Origin: Mytilus galloprovincialis
Taxonomy: Eukaryota > Mollusca > Bivalvia > Mytilida > Mytilidae
Reading direction: 5' to 3'
Assembly: GCF_965363235.1 (NCBI RefSeq)
Contig: NC_134850.1
Span: 29,662,102-29,726,101, forward strand
DNA: 64,000 bases
Shown here: one piece after another, positions 3,966 through 62,661 of the stretch
How positions within the stretch are numbered: the first letter of the stretch is position 1
Layout: every line of letters starts with the position of its first letter
Notes under the pieces: model-generated
Seen by the model: the letters and a program-made list of their open reading frames with translations, nothing else
Told to the model about the DNA's origin: nothing
Database searches by the model: none
Program-made: the position numbers and the translations under genes

Positions 3966-4089
3966 GATGTTATAATGTCATGAATGGAATATGTATTCAA
4001 TTTGTCACTGGAAATTACATATCAAGCCACCATCATCATATTCCCTGAATATGCAAGTTAATAAGTGTTCATGATATTTCTCGTTTGTC

Positions 4090-4884: not shown

Positions 4885-7800
4885 GCGGGGCTTGTGAAAT
4901 GTCGATTTAACTCTTATACAACATATACGTTGCTTTTAAAGGGTTCGTGTTATTAAATCTATATATGGTTGTCTTCAAGAGATTTTTAATTGAGTACACA
5001 TTATCGCTCTTTGTATTTTGGGTGTTTTCTTCTAGCATTTGTTTTGATCATAGTACAAACTGTACTTCGACATCTTTTTTTATAGTCCCTTAGTAACCGA
5101 AATGTTTTACTTATACTCAGGTTGTTGTCTCTTTGACACATCCCCCGTTTCAATCCACGTGCACCATTTTCTACATTTGAAAATGCCTGTACCAAGTCAG
5201 GAATATGACAGTTCTTGTCCATTCGTTTTTTGATGCGTTTTGTTATTTGATTTTGCCCTGTGATTATGGACTTTCCGAATTGATTTTCCTCTGAGTTCAG
5301 TATTTTTGTGATTTTACTTTTCATTCTCAATTTTATCAGAGAGATACAACTATAGAGATTTCTCAAAATTAATGAAACATGATTGAAAACAACCTTTATT
5401 CCTTATGGTTATTATTATGTTTCTTAAAAAACTGTTTGTCAATCATAGATTCTATTTACTTTTACAGTAAATTTAGTAAATAGGTATAGTGTAGACTCGT
5501 TTCAGTATAGATTCATTAGATAGAAGATAAAGTGCAGAATCGTTTCAGTATAGATTCATTAGATAGAAGATAAAGTGTAGAATTGTTTTAGTATAGATTC
5601 AGTAGATAGAAGATATAAAATTAGGAAATTGAGACTCTACCAAAATCAGTGAAAATGATGAAAAATTAGATGATGACACCTTTAATCATATGAGTGCCAA
5701 TGAGACAACTCTCCATCCATGTCACAATTTACACTATAAGTACGGTCTTCAACATTAGAATGGCAATCACAGTCGTCTCATAATTGTTTTTTTTTTTGTG
5801 ACCTCGAGACCTTCTCGTTTAAATAAAAGAGCATTAATATAGTCTTTACTGTTATTAATTTCACATCAGTAAATCGCATATATCGAAGCTTAAGTAAATA
5901 AATAATACAAATCGTAATAGGTTTCCAAGCATGATAAACCATTAACTCCGGTTTAACCCTCAGTCAATGATTTTTTTTCTAGGATTATTTTTATGTTCCT
6001 AACCAAAAGGGTATCAACCTTAATAATTATCTAATATAATAGCGCCTTCTTAGGGTCAATTTTCTCAAGATTATTTATAATGGAGTGATTGTAGTGAGCA
6101 AAATATAACGACTGGATTATTCGGGTTATCTTAATAAATATCAAGGTTGATATCCTGAGATTGATGACTATTAATTGATATGATATTAAAACTATTTCCC
6201 GCAGTTGTCTTAATGGGATATGGTAATATATCGGAACAAAAATAAGATCTCAACGGCTTTTCGATCACGGTTTAACCAATTTTCATTAGTTTTCTCAAGT
6301 GCGAAACATCTACATGTTAAATACGTCCGACAAAATCTAATTACGAAGAGAAAGTTGATAAATTGAATTGATTGCTTGACGTCAAGTAACATTTATTTTA
6401 TCCATTTTCATGACGAGAACCATTTATAACAAATAGACATATTTAACCTTTAACCTGAATTGTCTAAGACTAACTGTAGATCCGTCATGCAACACACACT
6501 TTTGAATTCTGACGTCAAATATTATTGTGATGCAATATTTTATAGGAATTTGTGTGGTTTTAAGAAATGGTAGACATATTTGCATACAAGTGTAGATATG
6601 TCTATAAATGCAATAAGCCAGGTCTGGAAAATTTATCGATTAGGATGAATGTTTGGAAATTGATCTAGACTGATACTGACGAAAAAGGACCGAAACAGTG
6701 ATTTAATACAGGTCACCAGCGTATCCCCTAAGAATTGTCACAGTTTCGTTTATTCTTTTAACAAAACGAATTTGACTAGCAGGTCGAACAATGGATGTTC
6801 TTAAACCCTGCTGACTGCCATTAGCGATTGCCAAATAAACGGATTACCAGATGTAACAAAATGGATCTTAATTATTAATTTAATACCAAACAGTAATAAT
6901 AAACTCAGTAACAATAAACTTGCGGAAAAGTTATATACCGCACACAAAAGTTGCAAAAATTTAAATATCTTGGCCTCGAGCTTCACTGAAGAGTCATTAA
7001 TTGCTGAAATACGCATCGGGATTCTGGTGCAGTAAAATTGGTAGCGTTAATGTTTTTAAAATTGCAGGTCTCCATACGAACATGAAAATGAGTTAATTCC
7101 ATAAGGTAGAGTAAGCCATTTAAGGCTCCAAGAAAACAAAATATGAAACATTAAGAACTCTCTTTACTCTTTTTCGTCTCATTTATTAACCTAAATCTAT
7201 CGTTAAGAGACGTTATAAACAGAATCTTAACAGCATGTCGAAGAGAAACAACATAATAGCGAATTAGCCAACTTGAATCAATTCCTTGTGTAGGATCCAA
7301 GAAAGTTTCCTATTTCATAGATCGTCGATACCCCTTTTCACTTTTTTCAGGAGGCTTGTTGATTACATTTTTTGAAACGCTTTTTCCGCCATCAACATAT
7401 ATGGTATCATAATCAAGACGTTGTAGTCAATTTCGATCTCATTCTAATGTTTCAAGCATGCGTTTTGTCTATTTATCATATACTTAATTAGCATTGATAT
7501 GATAGCGTTTGTATATGTGTAATGAGCGTCTCGACTCCGTCTCGGGCTGATATGGGGGTCTCGGGATGATACCCAGGCTGATATGGAAAAGGCCATGTAT
7601 TAATCTCTATGTAATATGATTTTTGACAAACAATTACGTATATACAGTTGTCACCATCAAAGGGAATATTGGTAATAATAATTTCAATATATTCAACGTT
7701 ATATCGAAACCCTGTATTAAAATCTTTATTTTTGAGAAAATCCCATGTGTTTAAAATTGAAATCATATTATCAAGCAAAGAGAATGTTGTTTAGACAATC

Positions 7801-9266
7801 TTTGCCTATACTCCATGGAATACCTCACAAGGTGTCCGTTTAATGTCAGAGTAGTAGCTTGATTCTTTTTGGAATTGGAACCAATTTGATTCCTACAGTT
7901 GAAATATATTTTCAAATTGCTACCTAGGTGGTCCTATCACGCCTGTTATTCCGTAGAACAACATGGGTTTTGTGAACATTGCATGGGTTCTGCTCATTGT
8001 TGCTAACCATTTGGTCTCTGATAGAAAGTTGTAATAGGCAATTAGACAATCTTCTTGTTTTATTTTCAAAAGTCATATCCTCCACACAAACGTAGTATTG
8101 TACATAATTGACACAAGAACTGCGTTTGCTGGTAATATTCTGTATGTCACTATATTGAAGGATTTCATACCTGAAATATATAACAGATTTTGTTGATCCT
8201 GTGTAACTATAATTGAAACGGAAAACGGAAATCTTAACAAGATCGGACAGACGGACGGACGAACAAGAAATTGACATAAACTCACAAATTTGGCAAACGC
8301 ATTTCAAAATTGAATAGTTATTCAAAGTGAATAATTGTTGTTCATGGCGAATAATAACTGTTGAACTCAAAAAAGGTTTTAAAAATATTAAATGAAAAAG
8401 TTAGTGAGAGCATCAAACTATTTCAAATTTACGCAGGAGGTCGTTGGTTCGATTTTAGTCGGGTCAAACGCTAGGAATTTGCTGCTTCTCCACAAAGCAT
8501 GAATGTTACATTTAGGTTGGCCCGAAGTCGGAATAATGTGCCCTAGAAGGGTGACATGTCGTCCTGCTGACAGTCACTTTGTGAACAAGCACGTTAACAT
8601 TCCGGCTTAGCGTGCTGGACTTCTTTTTAGCAGGGTTCATATTAGGTTATTTTAAGATGTTATAATGTCATGAATGGAATATGTATTCAATTTGTCACTG
8701 GAAATTACATATCAAGCCACCATCATCATATTCCCTGAATATGCAAGTTAATAAGTGTTCATGATATTTCTCGTTTGTCGTTTTAATATATAGATTAGAC
8801 CGTTGGTTTTCCAGTTTGAATGGTTTTACACATATCATTTTTGGGGTCCTTTATAGCCTGCTGTTCGGTGTGAGCCAAGGCTCCGTGTTGAAGACCGTAC
8901 TTTGACATATAATGGTTTACTTGTATAAATTGTGACTTGGAAGAAAAGTTGTATCATACATCTTCTTGTATTTAATGGTAACCTCTTCCGTTTACTCATA
9001 AAAATAAAATCATCTTGTTCAGCCCTGCTGCTACATGTACTCTGACAGCTCACTATAGTCAATACTTTCGGTACTGATATAGTTCATAAGAATCCTTTCT
9101 AAAATTTTATTTCGGTCCTCTTTCATCATTGTCTTTCGAATATTTGGCTTTGAGCGTCCCTTATTAAGAAAACTCCAGATAACCTCTTCGGACGTATACA
9201 TTTTTTAAAGTTTTGTCTCGATTTTTTTCTGACAAATTCACAAACAAATTCTATACGCGGTAAAAA

Positions 9267-9574
9267 TGCTTTATACATGTAGGTCTCAAGCCTTATGCAT
9301 GTACATGTAGGTCTCATGCTTTATACATGTAGGTCTCATGTTTTATACATGAATGTCTCATGCTTTATACATGTAGGTCTGTTGCTTTGTACATGTCTCA
9401 CGTTTATGCATGTAGGTCTCATTTTTTATACATGTAGGTCTTATGCTGTATGCATGTAGGTCTCGTGCTTTATACATGTAGGTCTTATGCTGTATGCATG
9501 TAGGTCTCGTGCTTTATACATGAAGGTCTGTTGCTTTGTACATGTAGGTCTGATGCTTTATACATATAGGTCTC
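9267..9574. repeat. 22-bp minisatellite (array copy 3)
   Basis: Same block of variant 22-bp units as at 4577-4884. Confidence 0.87.
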
Positions 9575-10327
9575 GCGGGGCTTGTGAAATGTCGATTTAA
9601 CTCTTATACAACATATACGTTGCTTTTAAAGGGTTCGTGTTATTAAATCTATATATGGTTGTCTTCAAGAGATTTTTAATTGAGTACACATTATCGCTCT
9701 TTGTATTTTGGGTGTTTTCTTCTAGCATTTGTTTTGATCATAGTACAAACTGTACTTCGACATCTTTTTTTATAGTCCCTTAGTAACCGAAATGTTTTAC
9801 TTATACTCAGGTTGTTGTCTCTTTGACACATCCCCCGTTTCAATCCACGTGCACCATTTTCTACATTTGAAAATGCCTGTACCAAGTCAGGAATATGACA
9901 GTTCTTGTCCATTCGTTTTTTGATGCGTTTTGTTATTTGATTTTGCCCTGTGATTATGGACTTTCCGAATTGATTTTCCTCTGAGTTCAGTATTTTTGTG
10001 ATTTTACTTTTCATTCTCAATTTTATCAGAGAGATACAACTATAGAGATTTCTCAAAATTAATGAAACATGATTGAAAACAACCTTTATTCCTTATGGTT
10101 ATTATTATGTTTCTTAAAAAACTGTTTGTCAATCATAGATTCTATTTACTTTTACAGTAAATTTAGTAAATAGGTATAGTGTAGACTCGTTTCAGTATAG
10201 ATTCATTAGATAGAAGATAAAGTGCAGAATCGTTTCAGTATAGATTCATTAGATAGAAGATAAAGTGTAGAATTGTTTTAGTATAGATTCAGTAGATAGA
10301 AGATATAAAATTAGGAAATTGAGACTC

Positions 10328-29141: not shown

Positions 29142-29878
29142 TCTATACTATTAAACGAGAAGACCTCATTTTGGGTGTCGCTTCTCTTCTTTCCACAATA
29201 AATTAATCAACACGCCTCTGTGTCCTATAGGTACAGTGCATAGTCGCATTTGTCATCCATTCATATGATTATTCAGATTGAGTTATTTTGGGAGAAAAAC
29301 GAGAAAAAGGGCATCCGGATATTGTCCCGTCATTGGACAAAATATTAAGTCAGATTATACTTCCGGTTTGCGTTTTTCTGTATACATACTACGAATAAAG
29401 TGTATTTTCAGAATTCTATCTGCTATCATTTTCAAGTTTACTATCCACGGTGGTCACAGAGTTTATTAAATAAAGAGGGTCTGTATACTATATCATAATC
29501 AATGACCACCATGTATCGATTAGAAAACTTAGAATTGAAAGTAAATACACGTTTAGAGTTTATTAAATAGAGAGGGTCTGTATACTATATCAATGACCAC
29601 CATGGATCGATTAGAAAACTTAGAATTGAAAGTAAATACACTTTATTTTATTCATATTGAAATTGATAGAAAACCACAAATTGGGAATTTTGGAAATAAA
29701 GGAGGAGGGATTAAAAAACTGAACATTTTCCTGTCCCCAATAACCTATGATTTATGATACTTTTGCTGAAATTCTCCAGTCATTCAATATTTCACAAAAT
29801 TCTTCCAACAACACTTTACATACCATGCATACTTTAAACTACGCTCTGAATGCCCGCGATTTCGCGGGTGTGTTCTAG
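29142..29878 (+). mobile_element. non-autonomous Helitron, copy 1
   Basis: Begins TCTATACTATTAAA and ends CTAG, with a GC hairpin (29853-29868, cccgcg...cgcggg) six bases before the end. It sits between A and T. These are the three hallmarks of Helitrons. It is 737 bp, with no Rep/helicase. It contains an internal tandem duplication of about 95 bp (about 29458-29645). A 63-codon frame inside is not protein-like. Confidence 0.88.
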
Positions 29879-29880
29879 TA

Positions 29881-30617
29881 TCTATACTATTAAACGAGAA
29901 GACCTCATTTTGGGTGTCGCTTCTCTTCTTTCCACAATAAATTAATCAACACGCCTCTGTGTCCTATAGGTACAGTGCATAGTCGCATTTGTCATCCATT
30001 CATATGATTATTCAGATTGAGTTATTTTGGGAGAAAAACGAGAAAAAGGGCATCCGGATATTGTCCCGTCATTGGACAAAATATTAAGTCAGATTATACT
30101 TCCGGTTTGCGTTTTTCTGTATACATACTACGAATAAAGTGTATTTTCAGAATTCTATCTGCTATCATTTTCAAGTTTACTATCCACGGTGGTCACAGAG
30201 TTTATTAAATAAAGAGGGTCTGTATACTATATCATAATCAATGACCACCATGTATCGATTAGAAAACTTAGAATTGAAAGTAAATACACGTTTAGAGTTT
30301 ATTAAATAGAGAGGGTCTGTATACTATATCAATGACCACCATGGATCGATTAGAAAACTTAGAATTGAAAGTAAATACACTTTATTTTATTCATATTGAA
30401 ATTGATAGAAAACCACAAATTGGGAATTTTGGAAATAAAGGAGGAGGGATTAAAAAACTGAACATTTTCCTGTCCCCAATAACCTATGATTTATGATACT
30501 TTTGCTGAAATTCTCCAGTCATTCAATATTTCACAAAATTCTTCCAACAACACTTTACATACCATGCATACTTTAAACTACGCTCTGAATGCCCGCGATT
30601 TCGCGGGTGTGTTCTAG
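29881..30617 (+). mobile_element. non-autonomous Helitron, copy 2, head-to-tail
   Basis: Essentially identical to copy 1 over 737 bp, separated from it only by the dinucleotide TA. Hairpin at 30592-30607 and CTAG at 30614-30617. Confidence 0.88.
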
Positions 30618-45510: not shown

Positions 45511-45611
45511 TTATTCCACCTGCCACTCTTTAAAGAAGTCATTTCCTTTATTATCTACCACAATGAATGCTGGGAAATTCTCAACCTCTACTTTCCATAT
45601 TGCTTCCATAC
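45511..45611 (-). CDS. fumA-like: fumarase exon 12 and stop
   Basis: Residues 537-569, [20 protein letters not shown]...FFKEWQVE, stop TAA at 45511-45513. Matches the FumA C terminus. Confidence 0.95.
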
Positions 45612-48600
45612 CTATAACAAAAAAAAATATTTAGTATGAAATAGTTATTATTATTTTACCTTACATATATTACAAACAATCATGTTACATGCAATAATTC
45701 AGTTAATTTTCAATTCTAATTGCAAGGAAGGACGAATAACCTTTAAAGTTTACACAAGCAATGATTACCCTATTAAACACCGGCAAATAACCTTTTCAGC
45801 TTCTTGATTTGTACATGAGTTATCACCCATGAAAATTACATCACAGACGTAAATAAACAGAAAGGAAACGTTAACATTACAAGAAACCTGTTGAGAGACA
45901 GGAAACGTCTTGGACAAGCAACTCTTATAAATGGGCCTTTTCAGGGCAATCAAGATTTTACAAAAAAAATCTACCTTTGTTGTACATACAAGACATTCTA
46001 AGACCCAAATGTTTTTTCGAACGTCAACTTGTGTTTGTTATTTAAGTAATGTTAGTGCTTTTTCAATGATTCAAGAGGCCCTTCAACTGTTATTTCAGAG
46101 TTCTATTGTGAATTGTGGTCCCTTAGAAGTGATGAATATCCAAAAATGTCAACCCTTAAAAACTATTTCACTTCTGGTTGCACTCTCAGTGAAATAACCT
46201 TCTTGTGTTGACAATTTTGGATAATCACCTTTTCTATCTACGGGCCATAATTGTATATTAATCAATTGCGTCTTCTGTCAGGGCTTTAACAAATCAAATG
46301 TTTTTCTTAGATGCAAATCTTATTGTGGTTTAAAAAACTTTTGTCCTGTAAATAAACTTATCAAAATTGACATATTACAGGTCGAAATATTTTTTTAATA
46401 AAAAAAATATAATCATAATTTCTTTTCATACATTATTAACTAACTAAATTCTAATATAAAGCGTACTTGTATACAGTTTTTATATCAAACTTGATATTAA
46501 AATCCTTAAATATATGCAATCTGCTGGTGTAAACTTACCTAATTCTGGATATTCTAAAACTTCAACTTTTTTTATACAGTTTTGTGCTAGTATAGCAGCT
46601 GGACCTCCAATGGATCCAAGATAAAATCCACCATATGTTTTACAAGCCTTGGTTACCTGAAAAAAAAAAAAATTGTCAGTTACCCTGGATAAATTTACAT
46701 CAAAGTTTCTAAATTTCCTGGACAGTACTGGTGATCCATTATTATTCAATTTTTAACATTTCTAATGGTTTTGTATGCAATACTTTTTCAAAACCATGCA
46801 GACTTTGGCAAAAACATGAAACCCAATATCCATGAAAAAAATATTTTTTGGCATTACAATATATTGGTACCCCCAATAATAAAATTAATCCACAGTATTC
46901 TCCCAGTACAGCATCACTGAATTTTAAATTGCACAATTGCTAAAATTATAGAACACCTTTAAAATACATTCCATTATAAAATATTTTCAGGTGGAACTGT
47001 GGTACAAAATTATCGTAGCGAAAAAATAATGAGCCATAAATTCATGTTTTTTTTTATATATAATTACCATGATTCCTTTGTGATATTAATTGTACATTTT
47101 CTCAACAGTAACTAAGGGGTGATAAATGTGGCCGTTTATAGCTGACTATGTGGTATGGGCTTTGCTCATTGTTGAAGGCCGTACAGTGATCTATAGTTGT
47201 TTTAAAATTGCTGTGTCATTTTGGTCTCTTGTAGAGAGTTTTCTCATTAGCAATTATACCACATCTTCTTTTTTTATAAGGACTATCATACATACCTGTT
47301 TACTTCTGTTTCCTTTGGCTAACATGATCATACATACCTGTTTACTTCTGTTTCCTTTGGCTAACATGATCATACTACCTCCATTCTTTTGGAATTGTTC
47401 CACATAGGAATCCATTCTACCAGCAGTTGTTGGACCAAATGACCCACTGGCAAAGCCCTAAATAAAATCCATCATATCGTTAATTACATTAGGTAGCATA
47501 GCATTTCAATATAGTATGAATAGGTTTCCTATTTCTTAACCATTTCTTTTGACAGTAAATAAATGATTTCTAAGGTTTTGTGTTATTTCTCAGGGGGACC
47601 ACTTTCTACGTCCAAGGTGATAGGATTTGCCGCTGGAATGAGAAATGGTCATCATGTTCATACATACAACAATAACATAAGTGCAAAATGCAAAATCATC
47701 ATTTTATTTAATTTGATTAAAATCAATAATATTCACATGAGTTGCCAATATGTTTATCCACCTTAACAAATCTAATATCAAAGAATCTAAAAAAAATTGA
47801 ATGGGCTTTTTTCTTCTTTGAAACAATTTCTTGCAAATAGACAAATGTCATTATATAAAATTAAAAAACATAATTCCCAACCACTTATACCAACAACAAA
47901 AATGCATTAAGTTGAATTTCCCTCTATCCAAAGAGAAAATACTGATGTTAAAGAATTTAAGTGAATTAAATTGACTTCCACATCTACTTTTAATTTGAAA
48001 AGTTTTGTTCCAATTTACTGCGACAAATTTCTGATGTATCGATTGTTGATGCAGTTCATTATTGTTTCTTGTTTCATGTTTTTTAAATAGATAAGATTGT
48101 TGGTTTTCCTGTTTGATTGGTTTACACCTGTAATTTTTTGGGGTCCTTTGTAGCTTGCTATTTGTTGTGATTTAAGGCTCTGTGTTGGTGACCGTACTTT
48201 GAGCTATGATGGTTAATTTTACAAATTGTGAGTTGGATGGAGAGTTGTCTCATTGGCACTTATACCACATATTTGTATACCTACTGTAATTTCAGAATTA
48301 TTCATATTGCCTGCATTTATCATTGCGATTTAATCATTTTAGACAAAAATGGGATTTTATTTTTGGCAATATCTGAATGATATGAGAAAAATCCTGTTTC
48401 ATTCATATAAAAAAAAAATTCAAATTTAAAACGCCAGTTTGAATATTTCGATTATAACCCTGTCACATTTTTTGCAATAATAAAAACATCCCAATAATTT
48501 CTGAATTTACAGTAATTTTAATTTATTTAGTGACTAACCTCTGGTGTTTTAGCTGGACCAGCGTAATATATTGGATGATTTTTAACATATTCAGGTAATC

Positions 48601-51600
48601 CTTCCCCGTTGTCAATCCTCTCTTGTAATTTAGCATGAGCAATGTCTCTAGCAACAACCAATGTCCCATTCAAACTAACACGAGTTCTGATTGGATAATT
48701 ACTTAAAACCTTTAGAACTTCTGCCATTGGCTGATTCAAATTAACCTGAAAAAGTGAAATGTAAACAATAATCTGAAAATTTTATTTGTTCAGAACATTT
48801 ATTATTTTTACTTAACAACCAAAAGTGAAATGTAAACAATAATCTGAAAATTTTATTTGTTCAGAACATTTATTATTTTTACTTAACAACCAAATATTCA
48901 TGTAAACAATGAATGCAGAATACTATGTACTAATGTGAAAAAATATTTTGTAAATATAAAGCTATATTAGCTTTGTGTACAATTCAGAATTCTTAAAATA
49001 ATTAATTTCACATACTGTAGAATCACAATATTCAGGAAATTTGAAATTCCCTACCAACTAAATGAATATAAAAAATATTTTGCAGCCATCTTGTATCTGC
49101 ACTTATGTATACATAAAGAAACATTTCTTTTCTAATTGTTCAACAGCTAATAAATGAATAATGACGCTCAAGATTATCATCGCCATATGTATGAGTTTTA
49201 TGTCTACTTTTTTATATTCGTGTATAATTTGCTGCTATACAATATTCCATTAGTTCACACTTACTTGAACAACTTCTGAACTAAGGTCTTTACTTTCTAC
49301 TTCTGGTAAATATTTAGATACATTTGTTTCTAACTGTTCTAAAAACACTCCATCTTCTGTGATTTTACCTAATGCCTATAAAAATGTAAAATAAAAGGAC
49401 TATATAGAATCATGTCAATAGAAGTACCATTAAAAATAGTCTTCCTTGATATTTTTCTTGATATTTGTTTAAATCATTCTTACACATTTTGATTACTAAG
49501 CTGAGTGGTTAATTTGTTGTTCAGGCTCTTGACAAATTTCATTTTGTAGTTTTTGAAGAATCTACAGACCATTCTAATGCAACAACATTTGTAACGTTCA
49601 TTTTGATTGGATAACGTCACTTTTTTACATGGCATCAATTGACAATTGATGTTATGGGACGTACGCGCAAGCGCAGACGGCATATGACAGATTTTTATTA
49701 CATGTTTTAACGTTGTTTTCTGTCAGTTTCATTAGAATGGAGATGTATTATAAGCTCCGACGGCATCAATTGGGGATTTGATGGTCGCAAATACCCGTTT
49801 ACTGTCTCCGCTAACGCGTCACCATTAAATTTAATTTGCGACCATCAAATCCCCAATTGATGCCATCGGAGCTTAAAATACAATACAGTTATCTCCTAAT
49901 TTTATTGTGTACTTTTTTTTACAACATTTAAATAAAAGTACACAACAACATAAAAGAAAACTTCATGAGGTACAAATTATAAATGAAATGATTTCAAATC
50001 ACACAAAATTCCTTCCGCTGAACTTTGGTGATCACCAACTCAATGGCTAGCCATGTCAAAACCCACACTTAATAAGGTTGATACAATTAACCAGAAAACT
50101 TTTACTAATTTTTAACAGATAGCCATGCTCTGTGATATTGAGAGTAATAAAACCTTCTTTATCAATTCATTTTTCATCAATTCTTATATACTTGATCAGA
50201 TTATTTTTCATTCTAATACAATGTGCATGAGTCAAATAATCTTTTGCTGTTCATAATGCCCATTTTATGGCCTTTAACAATGCCTTTTACTGAACAGTGA
50301 AATTTACAGATATGGTAAATATTGTGGTGACATGTATTGTGCAAACATAAAGAAAATAAGACAAACACAAAATTTCTTGATATACAGTTCTTAAAAAAAT
50401 AAAACACTATGTCTTATACAAAACCAACCTACCTGTCGATCTGCAGAACACGAAACACCTATCCCTACAGGACAAGAGGCACCATGTCTTGGAAGTCGGA
50501 TGACCCTTACATCATGGCAAAAATATTTCCCACCAAACTGAGCACCTATTCCAGCTCTTTGTGTCAGTTTGTGGATTTCTTCTTCTAATTTTCTATCTCT
50601 GAATCCTCTTCCATGTTCATTTCCTAGGTAATATACACATACAAAATCAATTGAAGTAATAATTATAAATATATTTTTGGGAATATGTGAATTTTTTAAA
50701 GTATTTTTATGTTTTTTCTTGTTTTCAGTGTCAAACCAGATGCTCCGTAGGGTGCAGCTTTATATGACCGCAGAGTTAAACCCTGTACAGTTGGGGCAAG
50801 TATGGACACAACATTCAAGCTTGATACAGCTCTGAATTTGGATTGTGATTAAATAGTTGACACAACATAGGTTTCTAACACAGAATAAATGTGGTCTAAG
50901 AACTTAAACTTAAAAACTTAAAAATTTTAAATTGGACATTTACCTATTATGGTCCAATATCCAAAATCTAAATACATGGTTAGATTTAGCATATCAAAGA
51001 ACCCCAAGGATTCAATTTTTGTTGATATCAAACAAAGTTTAATTTTGGACCACGATTTGGACCAACTTGAAAACTGGCCCCATAAGCATAAATCTTAATA
51101 CATGTTTAGATTCAGCATATCAAAGAACCTCAAGCATTCAATTTTTGTTGAAATCAAACAAAGTTTAATTTTGGACCAACTTGAAAACTGGGCCCATTAT
51201 CAAAAATCTAATTACATGTTTAGATTCAACATAGCGAAGAACCCCAAGAATTCAATTTTTGTTGAAATCAAACAAAGTTAATTTTGGACCCTGCTTTGGA
51301 CCAAGTTGAAAACTGGGACCATCATCAAAAATCTAAGTACATGTTTAGATTCAGCAAATCAAAGAATTCAATTTTTGTTAAAATCAAACTAAGTTTAATT
51401 TTGGACCCTTTGCAGTGATATTGTTTGCCTCAAATAACAGCCGAAATTCGGCCTTTTCCCCTAGAGAAAATTCCCAATTACTAAATAAAATGGCTTAAAA
51501 TTCCTCCCAAAAAGTTTGAAATTTTCCCCAAACAGTGATGGCATTGGTAGAAACGTTTGTAAATATCGTATTCATGTTATTATTTTGATATTAGAAAGCT

Positions 51601-54600
51601 CTTTTGAGATCCGGTTTTCTGATAAGAATCATCATTGTGTTTGAAACACATGTAGTTTTAATTTCAATGCATTAAGTACCATCATTGCTTCTGTTTCTTT
51701 CCCCTCTCCGAAAAGTACCTTTCAGGTTGAAAATGTCTGACAACCAAAATATACATGAAAAAAACAGTGCAAAAAAGACAGCAAAGGTCAGCAAAAAATT
51801 GGAGATGTGTTTAGAAAAATATATAAAAATTTCCCAATTTCAATTAAAAATATGCATTTTTCCCAATAAAAAACGGTAGAGGTAGTTTTGAAAAAAGACA
51901 ACAATATCACTGCTTTGGACTTTAATGTAAACCAATTTGAAAACGGGACTAAATATTAAGAATCTACATACACAGTTAGATTCGGCATATCAAAGAACCC
52001 AATTATTATTAATTTTTGATGAAATCAAACAAAGTTTAATTTTGGACCCTAATTCCTTAACTGTTGGGACTAAAACTCCCAAAATCAATCCCAACCTTCC
52101 TTTTGTGTGCATAAACCTTGTGTTTAAGTTATGGTGCAACAACCAAGAAAAATGCTTATTTGGGCCCCTTTTTGACCCCTAATTCCTTAACTGTTGGGAC
52201 CAAAACTCCAAAAATCAATCCCAACCTTCCTTTTGTGGTCATAAACCTTGTGTTTAAATTTCATAGATTTCTATTTACCTAAACTAAAGTTATAGTGCGA
52301 AAAGTGATGTGTCTTCGGACGACGATGACATCGACGACTACACCAACGTCATACCAATATACGACCGCAAATTTTTTTGCGGTCATATAAAAACTACCTT
52401 ATTTGGTACATGTATATTGGTAGATATTTAGCAAAGACAATTTTGACATACTGTTGATTCATCTATTTTTGTGGGTATCAATTTTCTTGCATTGAGGAAA
52501 AACTAGTGTTTTTGTGTATATATGATTTCATACAAAGCCTATAGAAAATATGTTAGTTGTTGAACGTTTGAATTTGTAGTTCACCTGTACAGTGAAACCC
52601 ACAAGAATTGATATTCAATGAATAATATGGAATACACAGTACACTATTTTTGATACAACCAAGAAAATAGGCAACTTCACAGTTAGTTATTCTATATTGA
52701 ATATATAGGGGCAGATTTTTTGGGATAGAGGTGAAAACAGTATGAAAATACGGGAAATCCTATGCATGTTTTAAGCAATTGTTTTGTAATTTTTAAACCA
52801 TTTTTACCACTATTATGACAATCCGCCGCCTATTCAACATGACTGGATTAATCCTGAAGGGGTCTATTATCAAAACATTTAGCAGAAGCAATTTTCACAT
52901 ACAATTTCTACAAACCTTCACAGGGTAAATTATCTAAATATTTAGCCGAGGCAAGTTTGACTGTCTTCAGATTAAATTCTGCTGATGTTCCTCCAATAAC
53001 AACAGCCAAATGGTATGGTGGGCAAGCAGCAGTACCAAGGGTCTGAAAACAGGAAGTTTAGAGCAATCAAAATTTATAGGATATAGTAAATGATAAGGCA
53101 GTGAAGCTCCAGTTTAAAGGGTCTGAAAATTGGGAGTTTCTAACAACCACAAATTGTAAGGTAAAGTTCAGATGATGTTTCCTGAAGAAGAAAAAAATCT
53201 ATAGTCAACCTAGAAACAACCACAAATTGTTAGGTAAAGTTCAGATGATGTTTCCTGAAGAAGAAAAAAATCTATAGTCAACCTAGAAACAACCACAAAT
53301 TGTAAGGTAAAGTTCAGATGATGTTTCCTGAAGAAGAAAAAAATCTATAGTCAACCTATCAATAATATTTAAATGAAATGCTTGTAATTTAGTGGTTGTC
53401 ATTGGTTCATGCTTGTCATATTTGTTTATATAAACTGTTTTGTAATAAATTAGGCTGTAAGTTTTTCTCAATTCAATTGTTTCATTATTTTCATGAATTG
53501 ACCTTTCATAGCTGACTATACAGTATGGGTCTTTCTAATTGTTAAAAGATGTTCAGTTGCCTATAATTGATAACATCTACTCCATTTGAACTTTGGTGGA
53601 TTTCTGTCTCATTGGCAGTCATACCACATCTCCTTATTTTTATGTAGTGACTAACCGCCAATCTTTTAGCAGCCCCAGCATATGTAGAATTAGCATTTTT
53701 TATAATTATTTTTTGCAAGGGAATAAGGCCAATGACCTCCTATTTTTATTTGATATTTAAGAAGTTTTATGAAAAGCGATTATAAATATCAATAACTTTT
53801 ATCTTAATCTATCATTTAATGTTCCCTACAAAAAAAAGGTTTTCCCTTTATTGCCAAGTAGTTCTGTTGAAAATTTGGTTAAAAATGATTTTTAATGACC
53901 ACTGTTTTGTAGAATTTGTTTCTCCCCTCAGGACAGGTATATTGTCCTATTTTACAGTAAAGAGGTCTTCACCCTGTAATTAATTCTATCATCTTTGCTT
54001 TCTCATCCTGACTTATGGAACAAAAACTTTTAGAAATAAAGGCTATTAAGGAGGTAGACCCAGGTTAAGGGAAATAACTCTTAAAATCATCAGTACGTTT
54101 GTGTGAGCGTTTTTCATAAATATATTCTAACCTTCTTGGATACATAGATTATTTCCAATCTGTTTCAGGTAAATGCTTAAAATTCATTGACGAAACTTGA
54201 CTTTTACAAGCGCATAACTGATTTAAAGAGTTATCTCCCTGAACCAAGGTCTACCCCCTTAAAACAAGTGTTTGGGAGAAAAAAACTTTAAAGAAATGGT
54301 ATGCTGGTATTTTAAACAGTAATGAGGCATCATTCTCTAAATAAAATCTATCACCTTTGCTTTCTCATCCACAAATTTCAGAAGTTTCTCTGGATTCAGT
54401 AAAGCTTTAGTCTGTTGATACAGAAATGTTTTATTGGCAGACCCGCCTCCTTTTGCTATAAACAGGAAGTCATACTGACTAGAATCTGTCGAATAGATTT
54501 CAATCTGTGCAGGGAGATTTGTCTTTGTGTTAACTTCTGTGTACATATCCAAGGGCGCAACCTGAAAAATAAATTGCAAGTTCAAAAGTATGTTATGGGC

Positions 54601-57600
54601 ATGACAGTTATACATACACTAATAGGCTTAATCCATATACCCGACGGCTATTTGCAAATCTGTGCCGCTTGACCTAATAAACCATTGCTTCTTAAACTTT
54701 AAATGTCATACAACAATACTTTTCCATTGTGGCATCAGTTATTTTTTATTATGACGTCCAAATTTTATGGGAACCTTTATGATGTCCAGTAATTGTGGAC
54801 AAGTAGCTATAGGCAATATGGTGTATGACATAATGGATTCTCCAGACCTACACTATGAATAGAAAGAAAGGCTAAAAGTACTCAAAGATATGTTCCACAA
54901 TTAGGACTATTTTGTTTTTACAAAAGATAATAATATTTGAAATGTGAAAAAAATATTGGTGTGAAACCCAATGACTAGACAGACAAATAATAATGTCACA
55001 TTTTAAACCTGTTTGTGATTGCTTAACCACCACCTTACACCACCTCAGTAAACCTGACACAGTGGCGTAACAGCACAGCATTTAAACCTATAGTAAATGT
55101 CAGTTGTTTAGGTCTTGGCCAATCAGAATTCTAGAGGCACGACGCACAAAAACATTAAGAAACATATACGTGCCACCATCAGTTTAATTTAGCAATATAG
55201 TATACTGTGAAAGTACTTTTATTCGTTTTATATTGAATATTGCTAAATCAGTGAATACTATAATTCTAGTCACAGGGCAAACGCACCATGAACGTCAACT
55301 GCAGGCCGGATTAAACCCTTTAATCTTTAAAAACCTAAACTGTACAACTTTTGATCTTATAATTCTCATAAAAAAATTATTTTTGATCGATGAAAGTCAG
55401 ATTCCCCGTATTGGTATGCTATGATAGAGTGTTCATTTTATATCCTCATAATTCTCGTATGGGAAATAATAATTTCATGGTAGGCTTGCTTTTGATGAGA
55501 ATTATTTTACCATTCAAGATAGGTTTATGTGTTTATAGAATTTGTTTATGTAACTGTTTACTTAAACAGATAGTAGCTACGATTTTCATTAAAATTATTT
55601 TTTTAATCTATATGCCAGATTTTGTATAAAAAGTTTAATAAGTATGATTGAAACAATTACTTGTTACTTTCCATTTAGCATGTGGAAGCTTTTTACCATT
55701 TTAACACCTTAATTTATTTCTTGTCTGTAGATAATAATCGATGTTAAGCCAACCCTTATTCATATGACCTAAGTTGATCTATGTCGACTTTAACTCGATG
55801 CGCAATTGCACATTGTGCCTCGAAGGGAAAATTGTCCAACAGGGGAATGTTATCACGAAAATGGCATGTGAATTTACAGTTTTTGCAAGTAAAGAAACAA
55901 AAAAGAGATGCAGACAAGTTATTGTAAATTAAAAATAAAAAACGGCTATGAAATCAGTCATTAAAATCATACAAAAAACCTGTGACGCAGGCAAAGTCAA
56001 ACAGAAGAAGACGACGGTATGCTTATATTTTATGTTTACGTTTCGTTTCTTAATTATTCCAGATCACATGAAAATAAATCGCAACGTGTTCATTTTTGTC
56101 AAAACTATGTTTATAAATTTACAGGCAGTGATCTCCCACCTTAGAAGAAATTAGAAAATAACTTCCTACAATTTAGTATTATTCTTCCAGTGTATCCTTC
56201 ATGGAGGCCCCGATCCAACACACAAACACGTATATACATTATCGGCATGGTTTGGTCATACAAATTTAATAACAAGTGTACAATATTGCCATTGTTGGAG
56301 AATCTTGCATTGGAATAATGTGAGGGTTTTTGTTATATTTTTTATTTAAATGGCGTCAAATATGTACGTTAATATGAAGTAATTATCAAATACGTAAGAA
56401 AACAAAAAGTACATGTTCATATCTATTTATATCTTAGTTAGCTCACTCGCTATGTTGGCAAAGTTCGGGAAGTAAATCCGATGCATAATTAATGAGATGA
56501 ATAGGCACGCAACACGATATGAATTATCAATTATTAACACTTCTGCAGTTTATGAAAACATTCTAGCGATCTTATTGCTTATTTTTAGTACATATCTTTG
56601 ATTTTTGCAGCTTTAAAAATGGTTCACAATTTTGTCAAAATCGTAGCTACTATCCCTTTAAGGTGACATGTTTATGGCGTAATCAAGACCTTAGATGGTC
56701 TTTTATCTGTTGATCAGTTTATCTTGGGTTGATAAGTGTGATCACTACGATTTACACGGGTCAATGTTTACTTTGCAATTTCCTTCATCCAGACAATTTG
56801 TAAACTTCGATTCTAATGGCTCAATTTTATGGATTTCTTTTTAGAAAACTTTAAATCCACGAATTTAAAAACCCACGAACACGTTAATGTTGCTCAAACC
56901 ACGAAAATCGATACCCACGAATTAAAGTACTTTCACAGTATAACTGTGTATAAGAAAAAATAAATTCATGAATCAAATTTCTGCCCTTTAATTTAAAGAG
57001 CTTAAATTTAGCTTTTCATGTTAAATTCTACAAATCAAAGCTATGTAAACTACATAATGTGGAGTTGATATGTAATTATATAATTATATATTTTAAAAAG
57101 GTAGCTGAAGCTTGCCTGTGGGTGCAGGATTTTATCGCTGTGTTAAAGACCCATTGGTGGCCTTTGGCTGTTTTCTGCTTTTGGTTGGGCTGTTGTCTTT
57201 TTGACACATTCCCTGTTTCCATTTTCAATTTTACATTTACAAATATACTCAGTAAATTACCTGTGAATACCTCAGATTTTTCTGTGTATAAGTGTTATAA
57301 ACACCTTTGGATAAAGCTGCAGCATCGTTGCCCTCTGTCCATACATACTGACCCTTCTTTCCTGAAAAATATCAAATTATTTTGAGATGTATGTGTCTAC
57401 AGTCAATGGAAACGTTGATTTTTCATCGGTTTCAGTTTTCACATATTGAGGAAAATATGTATTTCTTTTGGATATTTGATGTTTTGGTTTTGCCTAAGTT
57501 TGCATACAAGTCTATAGAAAATGTGTACTTCATTTAGCATTTGAATTCATGTTTTACCTATACACATGCAATCAAGGCCTGATTTCTGACAGAAAAATTA

Positions 57601-60600
57601 CTGTTTTTAAATATTATTTATCTGAATGTTTTTACTTTATTTTTTAATAATATCTCTGAGCTGCGTCCATACACCTTGAAAAATTGATATTAAAGTCTCC
57701 AAAAACTCAGTCAGTAAGTTATGCAGTTGAATCCAGTTTAAATTTGAAGGGCAATGGGGTCTGTACTACTGTAGAAAACTTTTCGGTTCATTCTTAAAAG
57801 ATCCAATGTAAAACTTGAATTTACAAAGTAAAACAAGCATTTAACATGTTTAACACTATATTTACATAATGTGGATCCATTTATTTTCATGGATACCAAT
57901 TTTTGTGGTTTGAGAAAAATGTGCATATTCAGGGATATTTAATTTCCTGGTTTTGGCAAAGACTGCATACATTCCTTTATAAAATTTGCAATTCGTTGAA
58001 CATTTTAATTTGCAGTATTTATCATTTAACCTACCCATACAAATAGCAGTTCCTGTATCTTGACATCCTGGCAGAACCATGGCTGATGCTATATTGGCAT
58101 TCTTCAGAAGTTCTAATGCTACAAACTTGTCGTTCTCTGAAGACTCTGGGTCCTTAAGGATATTTGACAGTTGCTGTAAGATAAAAAAGAATCAGGTTAA
58201 TTCTACATTTAGTGGTATATTTTATAGGTGAGGAAATAGATAGAGGGCACAAAACACCTCTTTTCATCAGATCTTTTTGTTAAATATTCATAAAAACAGG
58301 TCCCTCCCTACACTCGGTGGTATTTTTACCTTGACAAAAAAAAACCGACAATCATGCACCCTTTTCTTGAATCCTTAATCTGTACCTGAATGATCCTTTG
58401 TGGCAGCCATACAATATCAGTATTATCCCCCCAGTATGGATAGAATATTATTAAATGAAATGGTTCATGCAAGATGTTTTCTATCAAACATAACTGACAT
58501 AAGTTGCTGTGTGGCATACTCATGATACTGTATTGAATGTGCTGGCTGTGCCATGAACATTTTTGTTTAAACAATAACCAATTCTATGTCATACCTGTCA
58601 ACTGACCCGTATTTTGCGGGTGTGACCCGAGATTTTCACAATTCTGAGGGATCACCCGGAACACCCGCCGGGTCACTGAATAACCCGGGAATTTCGAAAA
58701 TGACCCGTTTTCACCTGGATTTCTAACCCTAGAGAATGATTTCATAAGTGATTTTTCTTTGAAATACCGGCAAATTCGTAATTATTCCATCAATAGAAGT
58801 TCAGCCAACTGTGTACTGTGTAGACTGTCAAATTAAGTAATCCATCAAGTGCATGGCTTCACTTGACAGCTTTGGTGTCAAACACACTGTTAATTAACAC
58901 CAATTACCTTACGGCCTAGCCAAGATCAGATGTGCATTTCATATTGGGTCTATGTTATAGGCTTGTAAAGACAAGAAGATAAACTTTACATAAGTAATAC
59001 ATCTTTGAACTGAAGAAGAGAATGTAGGGTTTCACAATGAATATCAAATATTATGTATAGGTGTTACCGTTTTGAAAAAAAAACACTAAAATACACGCTG
59101 AAAATGGGCAAAATTACACGTTATGTTGTTTCATTTGAAATTTACCTGTTTTTATCAATTGATAGTTAATAAGTGAACTTAATTTGAACTACATTATTGG
59201 TTCACTGTTATAGACAATTTATTCTTCTTTCTTTTACTGGTTGTTGCAACAAAAAATCTTCAGTGGTTACAAAGTTATGATAAAAAGTTGAATACTATGC
59301 GCTTGTTATGAAATTTTGTACTTTTGTTTTTAGCTTGCTCAGTGTAGTGATAAAAGAGAAAAATAAATCAAATTTATGCTGTTATGTGTTTTGTTTTCTC
59401 TTCTAGTATATACATTATCAAAAACTACCTCATTTATCAAAATTGCAGTACCCTAGCTGGAGATATATGCCATCAAAGTTGGATATACAAATAAAGTGAA
59501 AAAATGTCTTGTCCGTAGACATGCTTTCCCTAGTAAACTGGAAGCATAATTACATTAATGTTGCATTGCTAAGTTCCTGTTCTTTTGTAGATATGAAAAC
59601 ACTACTAACATTTTTTTCTACCATCTATTAATAGAGGAAAAAATTCAAAAATATGTCAGAATGTCTTGTCCGTAGACACATGTCTTGTCCGTAGACATGA
59701 CTTTTTATCAATATTGCTTGGCTTTATGGGTCTTAATTAGTCCTATGTGTTGTTTAAACTTAGAAATATCTTATTTTTAATAAATAAATGGTAATTTAAG
59801 TGTTCTCAATTTTTGTAAAATTACTTTACAGGAGTGGATTTTAAAAAGTGTCAGATTATTAGTCATAAAAAGCATACCTTATTTTACTTCAATATTGTTT
59901 ATTCCAGTTGATGCATACCTTAAAAGATTAAACTAAATCAAATGAAGAAAAAGTATTTCTCTCTCTCTAACTTTATCTTTTGCATTTCAGTATTAACAGC
60001 AGATGAGGAAGTGTCTACGGACAAGACACTTGTACATAACAAGTATTAAATTCAATTATTTGTCTGCTATGGAACTTAAATCTTATTTATAGGTGATGAA
60101 AGTTATCTATTCAAATTAAAACTCAGTATTTTCAACATGAATATAGTCACAATTAATTCTAACAGTTTTTTTTTAACTGAAATTGTCTTGTCCGTAGACA
60201 TTACCACAATATATTTGTATCCAATTTCCTTGATTTCAGCCTAATTTGATAGGTAAAATGTATGTTATTTTTTCAAGAGAACACATTCAACTATGTCAAA
60301 ATTGAGTTTTAATAATAGTTTGATTGTTTTAAGCAGTCAGATATATGGATTTCAGTTAAAAGAATGTGTCTTCAGTTTGGCTTAATCAATAAATTATTGA
60401 GATATGTAAAGAATTATGGGTACATTTTTATATTTTCCAAAATTTAAAAAACACAGCTTAAAATTTAATTAGTATCTTTTAATCTTAACTTTAACAATCA
60501 TCTTTGAAAGCATTTGATTGAATATCAATAAAATGTCTTGTCCGTAGACATTATCAAAATGTATTTGTTTCCATTGTTCTCGAAGTTAAGCATCATTTGA

Positions 60601-62661
60601 TAGATAAACCTGATAAAATGTATGTTTTTTTTTTTTCAAGAGAACACTTTCAGCTATATCAAAATTAGGTTTTAATAATGCATTTCATTAAATATGAATA
60701 CAATGTCTTGTCCGTAGACAAAACATATAAATTGTATTGCTAAGTTTGATTCTTTATTGTAAGAATATGCATCAAGTTATTTTAATGTTCTATACACCAA
60801 AAGAAAGGTTTTTTTTGGAAGTTTTGTTATTTATAGATAATTTTAGATACAGTTTTATCAGATAAGATTAATGATCAAAGAAAGCTACTGTTGTTTGAAA
60901 TAACTGTGAGTTAAACATGTTCTTGTCATTTTTTTTTTCAATTAAAATGTTTGATATTCAATAATTCTAAACATATTTTGTTGTCTTTGTCATTGACTAA
61001 AAATTTGACACTGGTGACCATGTCTTGAAGCCAACCATTAAAGAAAATAATACAGTTTTTAAACACCATTTATTTAATAAAAATATTAAATATTTCTTCC
61101 AAAAACTGCATGTAATTATAGTGTTAGCCTAACGATAGCAATTTTTCATAATTTAAACCATTTTTGAACCAAAATATCAAGAGTTTTTCCCTGAGGTGAT
61201 ACTCATTTTTGACTTCATGTGAAACACAAAATGCACATCTGATCTTGGCTAGGCCGTTAGCTTTAGGTCGTAAATAAATTTCACTGTTGTCACGTTTTAC
61301 AAAGATTTGTCAACTGAGTTACTTCCCCTTTTTTGTCACCATTCAAAATTGTTCCTTATATTTACGTTTTTTGGGGTAAAAAAGATCAAATCTACTACAA
61401 ATAGAATTTAAATACATATTAAAATATAACTTTTCATTAAATTCATACCTTAATACAATTATAAAAAAAAGTTGAAAATTATTTTTTATCTATACTTCCT
61501 TTAACTGTTTAACTTTATTTTACTATACTCTAATTATGAAAGAGAGTTCAAATAGCTGATAAGCAAAGACTATATAGCCAGTCACAACTTTCTAAAATTA
61601 ATAAAAAATAGCCAGTCACAACTTGAGGGTGAAATACTATACATATAGATCAATGTAGAAGTGTCAATAATAACATTAACCAAAAGAAGAGGAGAAAGTG
61701 TCACAAAGTTATCAAAAGCTTTTCAAAGTGCAATGAAATAATGATTAATAAAGTGAACATGTTCTGGAAACTAATATTTAAATTATAAAAAAAATGTCCC
61801 TTAATTACTGAAATTCAGCTTGAAAAAGTTTGTACGCGTTATGACCTGAGATTCCATTCTTCAATGCAGGTCATGACCTGCATTTTCATCGTCACAGGTT
61901 GACAGGTATGTCTATGTACATGTACATATCAAGACTATAGATTAGACCATGATGCATGTATATCACCAATAACTAGTTTGAAAAAAATTCAAAATTCAAT
62001 TGATGTTCCATAATTTAATGAACATTACCTGCAAGTGTCCAGGTCTAAGAAGATGTGCAATATCTATCATTGCCTGTTCAGCCAGCAATGTTAAAGCTTG
62101 TGGTTCTACTTTCAGAACTTTCTTCCCCATAACATCAAAAGTTGACACATAGTCACCTGCAAAATACATATACACTGCCAATAACATCAAATGTTGACAC
62201 ATATTCACCTGTAAAATACATGATATACATGTACACATAACATAATATTTCTGACCAGTTTTAATTCCTTTTAGCCTTGCTCAATTTATCACTACATGTA
62301 GATCTAGTATTTAGGATCTTTTATCAGAATTTAAGTATCATGTGTATTGCATGTTTCAATTTTGCTAGGCAAATAAATAAATCAACTGTGTAACCCTTCA
62401 ATGAGTGCCAAGGGAAATAACTCGAATTCAAATCATTTCTGACAGGAGAAATCCTCTTCAAGGAGGAATGGAATGATTACCTTCATTGTTACAGTACATA
62501 CCAGTTAGTTTTTTCCATGGTGTGTCCAATGGTTTTTCTGATTCCAGTATATCCTGGAAATAAAACGGTTTGATGGCAGCTGCTGCTTGTGCACTTTGGT
62601 GTCTTGTACTGACTGAGTAGATCTTAGCACAGATTCTTCTTACACATTTAGATGACTGCAT
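45511..62661 (-). CDS. fumA-like: class I (iron-sulfur) fumarate hydratase, 12 exons
   Basis: Join on the minus strand 62661-62502, 62156-62029, 58173-58035, 57361-57261, 54561-54355, 53042-52916, 50623-50433, 49375-49265, 48745-48539, 47457-47338, 46656-46539, 45611-45511; all junctions in phase, 569 residues (E. coli FumA about 548). It catalyses reversible hydration of fumarate to malate in the TCA cycle. The [4Fe-4S] ligand cysteines are Cys133 (PGCQDTGTA), Cys252 (GTAACPPYH) and Cys346 (GVSCSADR). Active-site candidates are Arg173, His334, Arg421, Thr467, Arg471 and Lys491. The numbers coincide with those I recall for the Leishmania class I enzyme. The N terminus ([20 protein letters not shown]) is basic and Ser/Ala-rich, as in mitochondrial presequences. 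An acceptor-like tctctag 9 bases upstream of the ATG suggests an untranslated first exon. Most animals use the unrelated class II enzyme. Introns are 0.3-3.9 kb and repeat-laden. Confidence 0.95.
45612..46538. other. fumarase intron 11
   Basis: Holds a small imperfect inverted repeat at about 46093-46198 (ttatttcagag with ctcagtgaaataa). The 88-codon plus-strand frame here has no protein-like features. Confidence 0.4.
46539..46656 (-). CDS. fumA-like: fumarase exon 11
   Basis: Residues 498-536 ([20 protein letters not shown]...LEYPEL). Acceptor with a long T tract, donor ttaggtaagt. Confidence 0.96.
46657..47285. other. fumarase intron 10
   Basis: AT-rich. 47140-47275 is a reversed family B fragment (see its own entry). 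Confidence 0.5.
47138..47276 (-). repeat. family B fragment, reversed (fumarase intron 10)
   Basis: atagctgactatgtggtatg, gctttgctcattgttgaagg, tttggtctcttgtagagagt and taccacatcttctt, in the order of the reversed family B head. Confidence 0.72.
47287..47370. repeat. perfect 42-bp tandem duplication across an exon-intron border
   Basis: Units 47287-47328 and 47329-47370 are identical. On the minus strand each unit carries the coding segment [10 protein letters not shown] and the donor cag/gtatgt. Confidence 0.95.
47338..47457 (-). CDS. fumA-like: fumarase exon 10, catalytic lysine, duplicated donor
   Basis: Residues 458-497: [18 protein letters not shown] and [12 protein letters not shown], with Thr467, Arg471 and Lys491. 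The 3' 42 bp are tandemly duplicated into the intron, so an identical second donor lies at 47295. Using it would add 14 in-frame codons. Confidence 0.94.
48085..48285 (-). repeat. family A copy, reversed (fumarase intron 9)
   Basis: aagattgttggttttcctgt, ttggggtcctttgtagcttg, ggtgaccgtactttgagcta, gagagttgtctcattggcac, in order. Confidence 0.75.
48539..48745 (-). CDS. fumA-like: fumarase exon 9
   Basis: Residues 389-457: [20 protein letters not shown] and [13 protein letters not shown], the class I C-terminal domain, with Arg421. Confidence 0.97.
48751..48892. repeat. 71-bp tandem duplication next to exon 9
   Basis: aaagtgaaatgtaaacaata begins both units (48751 and 48822). It starts 5 bp beyond the exon 9 acceptor junction on the minus strand, so it covers the acceptor's upstream region. 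Confidence 0.9.
49265..49375 (-). CDS. fumA-like: fumarase exon 8
   Basis: Residues 352-388 ([18 protein letters not shown]...SSEVVQ), the hinge to the C-terminal half. Donor caagtaagt. Confidence 0.93.
49735..49878. mobile_element. inverted-repeat MITE (fumarase intron 7)
   Basis: taagctccgacggcatcaat...gatttgatggtcgcaaat pairs with atttgcgaccatcaaatc...gatgccatcggagctta. Arms of about 48 bp around a GC-richer loop with acgcgt. Confidence 0.88.
49879..50432. other. fumarase intron 7, remainder
   Basis: AT-rich, no recognised feature. Confidence 0.45.
50433..50623 (-). CDS. fumA-like: fumarase exon 7, third Fe-S ligand
   Basis: Residues 288-351: [20 protein letters not shown], then [14 protein letters not shown] with Cys346 and His334. 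Confidence 0.97.
50735..52395 (+). repeat. dispersed repeat family C, long copy (fumarase intron 6)
   Basis: Inverted ends tttatatgaccgca (about 50759) and tgcggtcatataaa (about 52391). The interior has four ~105-bp repeats around gaattcaatttttgttgaaatc and two of ccaaaatcaatcccaacctt. The left end also contains gctccgtagggtgcagcttt. The shorter copy is in the globin intron. No coding frame is credible. Confidence 0.75.
52430..52625 (+). repeat. dispersed repeat fragment, also at 57395-57560 and 57860-58030
   Basis: Shared order of tttttgtgggtatcaatttt, a tgaggaaaa block, tcatacaaagcctatagaaa and gttgaacgtttgaatttg. Diverged copies lie in fumarase intron 3; one abuts the exon 3 donor. Confidence 0.6.
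52916..53042 (-). CDS. fumA-like: fumarase exon 6, second Fe-S ligand
   Basis: Residues 246-287, [20 protein letters not shown], with Cys252. Acceptor gttttcag, donor gaaggtttgt. Confidence 0.96.
53143..53361. repeat. 73-bp tandem triplet (fumarase intron 5)
   Basis: Three near-identical units starting acaaccacaaattgt at 53143, 53216 and 53289. They lie upstream of the exon 6 acceptor. A partial copy of the acceptor region (agggtctgaaaat at 53118-53130) precedes them. Confidence 0.92.
53504..53645 (-). repeat. family B fragment, reversed (fumarase intron 5)
   Basis: tcatagctgactatacagta, ttctaattgttaaaagatgt, gtctcattggcagtcatacc, in reversed family B order. Confidence 0.65.
54047..54262. 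mobile_element. MITE with TTAA ends (fumarase intron 5)
   Basis: TTAAggaggtagacc...gggaaataactc and gagttatctccct...ggtctaccccctTAA are inverted. TTAA at both ends suggests a piggyBac-type target, although the terminal bases are not the classical CCC. Confidence 0.72.
54355..54561 (-). CDS. fumA-like: fumarase exon 5
   Basis: Residues 177-245: [20 protein letters not shown], then [20 protein letters not shown], nearly invariant in class I fumarases. Confidence 0.97.
54638..54824. mobile_element. MITE family M2, diverged copy (fumarase intron 4)
   Basis: Shares acttttccattgtggcatca and tgacgtccaaattttatggg with the copy at 32219-32380; the inverted ends are degraded. Confidence 0.6.
55203..56940. 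mobile_element. 1.74 kb TIR DNA element with TA target (fumarase intron 4)
   Basis: tactgtgaaagtacttt at the left and its inverse aaagtactttcacagta at the right, each bordered by TA (55201-55202, 56941-56942). The TIR is about 23 bp with one mismatch. No transposase frame survives. TA duplication fits the Tc1/mariner-like group, but the class is uncertain. Confidence 0.78.
57261..57361 (-). CDS. fumA-like: fumarase exon 4
   Basis: Residues 143-176, [11 protein letters not shown] through [15 protein letters not shown], with Arg173. Acceptor atttttcag, donor caggtaatt. Found by reading splice sites, since it is only 101 bp. Confidence 0.95.
58035..58173 (-). CDS. fumA-like: fumarase exon 3, first Fe-S ligand
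   Basis: Residues 97-142. [18 protein letters not shown] contains Cys133 and Asp135. Donor atgggtaggt. The intron after it begins in a dispersed repeat. Confidence 0.95.
58912..61256. mobile_element. nested Harbinger-like element, 2.35 kb
   Basis: 28-bp inverted ends starting cggcctagccaagatcagat, flanked by TTA on both sides (58909-58911, 61257-61259), as in PIF/Harbinger. It encodes nothing evident. It carries seven exact copies of TGTCTTGTCCGTAGACA between 59505 and 60720 and an internal diverged duplication of about 350 bp. Confidence 0.85.
59505..60720. repeat. seven copies of a 17-bp near-palindrome
   Basis: TGTCTTGTCCGTAGACA at 59505-59521, 59662-59678, 59681-59697, 60184-60200, 60534-60550 and 60704-60720 (+), and 60012-60028 (reverse). 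All are exact, while the surrounding sequence is diverged and AT-rich. The outer five bases, TGTCT/AGACA, are inverted. Confidence 0.93.
62029..62156 (-). CDS. fumA-like: fumarase exon 2
   Basis: Residues 54-96, [20 protein letters not shown] and LLRPGHLQ, match the FumA N-terminal block. Acceptor tattttgcag, donor caggtaatg. Confidence 0.95.
62502..62661 (-). CDS. fumA-like: fumarase exon 1, mitochondrial presequence
   Basis: ATG at 62661-62659. Residues 1-53: no acidic residue before Asp37, several Arg/Lys, an Ala-rich stretch, then [11 protein letters not shown]. Donor ctggtatgt. Confidence 0.88.

Follow-up and report, generated by a model that had tools for sequence, protein, structure and literature searches.

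A 42-bp tandem duplication doubles the exon 10 splice donor of a predicted class I fumarase gene in Mytilus galloprovincialis

Background

When a tandem duplication copies the end of an exon together with its splice donor, does the gene gain a new product, or does it go on making the old one? The question is raised by a locus in Mytilus galloprovincialis, which we analysed within a window of 64,000 nucleotides; coordinates below are positions in that window, and all features of the gene lie on its minus strand. A first-pass annotation of the window had proposed that a recent, in-frame duplication of 42 bp, located where exon 10 of a fumarase gene ends, creates a tandem-donor isoform, possibly with altered catalysis. 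We asked what the duplication consists of, what it would do to the protein, and which of the two donors is likely to be used.

Results

The duplicated segment

In the minus-strand reading, an exact doubling takes in the final 36 nt of exon 10 and the opening 6 nt of intron 10, and the exon end runs ...AGTAAACAG / GTATGTATGATCATGTTAGCCAAAGGAAACAGAAGTAAACAG / GTATGTATGATAGTCC. The two units, each of 42 bp, occupy 47285-47326 and 47327-47368 and are 100% identical to each other, which bears out the earlier description of two perfect units at the end of exon 10, each carrying CAG/GTATGT. Both donors stand in the context AAACAG/GTATGT, with the GT of donor 1 at 47336..47337 and that of donor 2 at 47294..47295 (beginning, in the direction of transcription, at 47337 and 47295). 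They are 42 nt apart, and their surroundings are the same from well within the exon to 11 nt of the intron. The 42-nt extension that separates them (47296..47337) encodes 14 residues if donor 2 is used.

The self-match at a period of 42 is itself 49 nt long, so that the full extent of the duplication is 91 bp (47285..47375), made up of two complete copies and a further 7 nt, GTATGAT. This heptamer is found at both ends of the duplication, first in the exon (47369..47375) and last in the intron (47285..47291), and again at the middle junction. That is the pattern expected of a duplication between short direct repeats, and we infer from it an origin via slippage or microhomology-mediated repair. 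A dispersed repeat (TGTGGTATAATTGC...; 47234-47267) starts about 30 nt beyond donor 2; if up to 6 mismatches are allowed, it has 13 matches in the window, and 32 when another 200 kb is searched with it. We considered whether the doubled segment could be the target-site duplication of this element and rejected the idea, as the two copies abut with nothing between them.

The gene and its product

The coding part of the gene was modelled as 12 exons running from 62661 to 45511 (45511..62661), with GT-AG introns and a single open frame that yields 569 aa by way of donor 1; the start codon of the model is our choice. If it ends at donor 1, exon 10 is 120 nt long and in phase 0 (47338..47457). The acceptor of exon 11 (46539..46656) is common to both donors and in frame with either of them, so that the locus has the two donors and single acceptor by which a tandem alternative donor is defined. 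Splicing from donor 2 would add 14 residues without a stop and with the frame kept, for a protein of 583 aa. Under the 12-exon model, the first-pass annotation is correct in its exon number, its donor positions 47337 and 47295 and its 14 added residues, and also in its statement that donor 1 gives the standard protein and donor 2 one with 14 extra codons; a second copy of the Lys491 motif in an unshifted frame is likewise supported, provided that donor 2 is used.

Both domains of a class I (Fe-S) fumarase were detected in the product, with Fumerase (PF05681) scoring 271.7 bits against a cut-off of 25 and Fumerase_C (PF05683) 294.2 bits against a cut-off of 22.2. Homology to the class I fumarase of Leishmania major (PDB 5l2r and 6mso) extends across query residues 26-564. 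The lysine of the AKGNRS motif is residue 491 of the 569-aa model; in chain 5l2r_A its aligned counterpart is, by manual count, position 527, which is likewise 491 after a construct offset of 36 residues. This offset fits the T467A variant 6up9, in which the change is at chain position 503, and PDB titles that name T467A and R471A variants support the same residue numbering. The positions corresponding to Thr467, Arg471 and Lys491 are all present and aligned with 5l2r, and the cysteines of CQDTGTA, AACPPYH and GASCPVG align with that structure residue by residue. By its domains, key positions and cysteines, the gene is identified from its sequence as one for a class I fumarase. We take Thr467, Arg471 and Lys491 to be functional positions of the class, Lys491 to be a catalytic residue, and the cysteines of the three motifs to be presumably the ligands of the Fe-S cluster.

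Copy number, frequency and age

The assembly that we searched comprises 1.385 Gb in 331 contigs, of which C1-C14, at 73-133 Mb each, sum to approximately 98.8%. The exon region has one DNA match in it, and all 12 matches listed from a search with the fumarase protein (14 candidates scored) fall in this gene. Neither a haplotype copy nor a paralogue bearing only one unit was seen among that one DNA match and those 12 listed protein matches; the duplication is a single locus in the assembly. On another contig, the C-terminal signature of class II fumarase (PF10415) scored 88.2 bits, above its cut-off (L014, C3:70442005-70442163), and therefore the animal probably holds two unrelated classes of fumarase.

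Counting exact tandem duplications with a unit of 25-200 nt, we found 13 in 200 kb, distributed over 7 of the 20 10-kb stretches sampled, and many of them within longer arrays. Under a less strict definition the same 200 kb yielded 41 rows, in which long arrays are counted as several pieces. Tandem duplications are frequent in this genome, and some are therefore expected to hit splice sites by chance. Letter-by-letter shuffles of 10 of the 20 stretches (100 kb) contained no exact tandem duplication, and an exact match of 49 nt at a single offset has a random probability of about 3e-30; chance is therefore excluded as the source of the match. The duplication is a genuine feature of the assembled sequence and ordinary in kind: a tandem duplication with short repeats at its ends, by which a donor happens to be doubled.

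The window itself contains five exact tandem duplications. Three of them, at its left end, are mutual copies; the others are the 42-bp pair of exon 10 and, at a distance of 1.4 kb within the gene, a 71-bp pair. This 71-bp pair (48750-48894) ends about 5 nt from exon 9, which starts at 48745, and doubles a stretch upstream of the exon 9 acceptor that includes ATTTTCAG. Elsewhere in the gene, an older and diverged 52-bp tandem duplication (62124-62220; 40/45 nt alike) doubles the acceptor region of exon 2, where the upstream acceptor would be followed by 18 residues and then a stop, so that only the downstream one is productive. A 73-bp unit is present three times upstream of exon 6 (53142-53358, 98% matches), with an acceptor-like TTTTTTTCTTCTTCAG in each copy. 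Outside these, tandem copies of about 4.69 kb occupy 1-10305, as seen from like minisatellite rows at 797, 5488 and 10178, and one 91-bp tandem pair occurs twice, 739 bp apart, at 29458-30384.

The claim of recent origin had been drawn from the identity of the units. They are identical, yet identity over so short a stretch is weak evidence of age: with 0 differences at 42 sites, neutral divergence is below 6.9% (95% bound), and with 49 sites below 5.9%. A report on the species (PMC11183127) gives a nucleotide heterozygosity of 3.27%. Set against that figure, the two bounds mean that the duplication may be a polymorphism in the population, and that identity alone is no proof of recency.

Consequences for the protein

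To judge the insertion we compared the closest relatives found, the best 80 of at least 595 confirmed matches, all of them bacterial; the residues were placed by regular expression in 70 and after alignment in 10 (for L081, via its matched coordinates). T467, R471 and K491 are unchanged in 80/80 of these best matches, and the distance from T467 up to the GGFYLG motif is 39 residues in every one. A search of the same 80 for an insertion or length change at the junction returned 0/80.

A structural model was made for one bacterial relative from an alignment that included 27 of the 80; its mean pLDDT is 83.2. It matches the Leishmania major structures with TM scores of 0.93-0.96 at about 62% identity. 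In this model the lysine is residue 464, directly after the strand 460-463, and the splice junction maps between residues 470 and 471, inside the helix 469-478 that lies behind the lysine loop; the block 461-470 has a pLDDT of about 73. The long form, in which Pfam detects the C-terminal domain as two stretches, would thus be predicted to repeat the strand and the lysine loop ahead of the helix. Presumably only one loop fits the active site, which makes lost or reduced activity the likeliest outcome for the long form, and the constancy of length in 80/80 of the best bacterial matches points the same way. On the alignments and the model, the 583-aa protein is probably inactive or unstable. Of the suggestion that the isoform is possibly altered in catalysis, the second lysine motif stands if donor 2 is used, while the unchanged length in all 80 of these relatives (best 80 of at least 595) speaks against it.

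Choice between the donors

Pairing with the 5' end of U1 has the same computed energy at both donors, -11.4 kcal/mol, and neither the 7-nt repeats nor the identity of the donors carries information on which is used. Rules of donor choice from human cells may not hold in this animal. With that reservation, a human reporter library in which both tandem donors were set to consensus showed predominant use of the first (PMC6783452), and the normal protein is therefore predicted here. A second human study (PMC5585400) describes SRSF1 bound just upstream suppressing the upstream one of two donors; context can therefore reverse the order.

One such context is suggested by the duplication itself. The unit contains ATGATCAT, a sequence identical to its reverse complement, and pairing between the copies can enclose donor 1 in a hairpin (47310..47385) with a predicted energy of -14.8 kcal/mol for that stretch alone. 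The G/GU of donor 1 has a predicted unpaired probability of at most 0.05 in 5/5 sequence contexts. Donor 1 has a predicted opening cost of 4.8-4.9 kcal/mol, where donor 2 requires 2.1-2.5 and a control with one copy 2.4-2.9, and the difference between donors 1 and 2 is 2.4-2.7 kcal/mol across the five contexts.

Controls reduce the weight of these figures. Among duplications of shuffled units, the difference was as large in 10/200, and donor 1 was at least as hard to open in 24% (mean 3.98, sd 1.78 kcal/mol). Donor 1 is therefore not unusually closed, and an unusually open donor 2 is part of the difference. Overall, the fold does not stand out (z -1.51, with 13/200 shuffles equally stable), and 3/10 other donors of the gene are predicted to be harder to open, at up to 9.3 kcal/mol. 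The predicted hairpin may favour donor 2, and we regard it as a lead rather than a result.

Discussion

The reading that we favour, at a probability of about 0.62, is that of a spontaneous 42-bp duplication bounded by microhomology, after which donor 1 still makes the normal enzyme, donor 2 is minor, the long form is probably inactive and the allele is nearly neutral. In this scheme the duplication would have arisen between two GTATGAT repeats, one in exon 10 and the other at the start of intron 10, and the exon end would have been copied together with its donor. The upstream copy would retain a complete exon end and donor, from which splicing would give the normal enzyme, and the second copy would then be merely extra intron. 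Use of donor 2, if any, would probably be minor and would lead to a protein of 583 aa in which the strand and the lysine loop occur twice. Because donor 1 would still work, we infer that the allele is nearly neutral; the preference for donor 1 and the inactivity of the long form are likewise our deductions. As a variant of fumarase, the duplication is probably harmless and of little consequence.

The opposite outcome, in which donor 1 is masked by the hairpin, splicing runs mainly from donor 2, most of the protein carries the insertion and a partial loss of class I fumarase is tolerated through the second fumarase, seems to us unlikely. It draws on the predicted pairing of the G, G and U of donor 1 (probability at least 0.95), on the additional 2.4-2.7 kcal/mol that opening donor 1, relative to donor 2, is predicted to cost in five contexts, and on the class II signature in the genome. 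The same folding calculations tell against it, given that 10/200 shuffled-unit duplications match the difference and 24% have donor 1 at least as hard to open, that the whole fold is unremarkable (z -1.51, 13/200 shuffles) and that 3/10 other donors of the gene are predicted to be harder to open; the human data (PMC6783452) point to the first donor. We would give only a slim chance to an extension of this idea, by which the duplication is a new isoform with its own switch: the copies pair, the hairpin over donor 1 pushes splicing to donor 2, and the ratio of normal to Lys491-doubled protein is set by RNA folding, for example by temperature, in a probably intertidal animal. An assembly artefact, with one copy in the animal and the second made by the assembler, is improbable as well. 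Further exact tandem repeats in the window speak for it; a 7-nt end repeat, however, is presumably too short to mislead a long-read assembler, and the diverged 52-bp duplication in exon 2 of the same gene indicates that such events occur and persist here.

Could the added segment instead be useful? A functional, regulated tandem-donor isoform, whose 14-residue repeat usefully alters activity or stability, is suggested by a length that is a multiple of three, the freedom from stops and the identical strong donors. One in three duplications keeps the frame by chance, however, the insertion is predicted to break the helix behind the active-site lysine, and an insertion here is found in 0/80 bacterial relatives (best 80 of at least 595); we consider this very unlikely. 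The proposal of a new tandem-donor isoform accordingly survives in part, in the identical, in-frame donor pair, and is weakened by the predominance of the upstream donor in the human data (PMC6783452) and by the unchanged length in 80/80 of those bacterial relatives. Least probable of all, in our estimate, is a nascent intron or recursive splice point, in which the 42 nt, bounded by GT...AG, are removed as a tiny intron and the CAG/GTATGT left behind is spliced again. The duplicated AGGT fits the intron-gain model of Rogers, as set out in PMC4974935; an AGGT tandem duplication is indeed found at this locus, whereas acceptor-side signals and a workable length are not. The segment would be an intron of 42 nt, where the shortest other intron of the gene has 345 nt, and its end is purine-rich (GGAAACAGAAGTAAACAG) and without a pyrimidine tract. 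The final mRNA would be the same as the donor-1 form, and hence hard to distinguish from it.

The value of the locus lies in the clean natural test of donor choice that it offers, with two equal donors in a gene that is intact in all other respects. Should the allele prove polymorphic, its carriers would reveal which of two equal donors the spliceosome prefers, and whether hairpins formed by tandem duplications matter.

The arrangement resembles the tandem competing 5' splice sites of animal genes described in PMC2423196 and PMC6783452, in that two donors compete for one acceptor and the exon is extended by a short segment. It differs from the entries of TassDB2, which according to PMC2878309 are 2-12 nt apart, in that the mussel fumarase donors are 42 nt apart and identical through duplication of the whole exon end. 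With the AGGT model of Rogers and the duplication in potato RdRp (PMC4974935) it shares a tandem duplication that copies splice signals, and the potato one also spans an exon-intron boundary. The potato duplication, as presented there, includes the acceptor side and gave rise to an intron; that of the mussel carries the donor side, and therefore an alternative donor is expected rather than a new intron. To the class I fumarase of Leishmania major (5l2r, 6mso) the mussel protein is homologous, and the mussel gene can additionally encode a second copy, 14 residues long, of the Lys491 segment.
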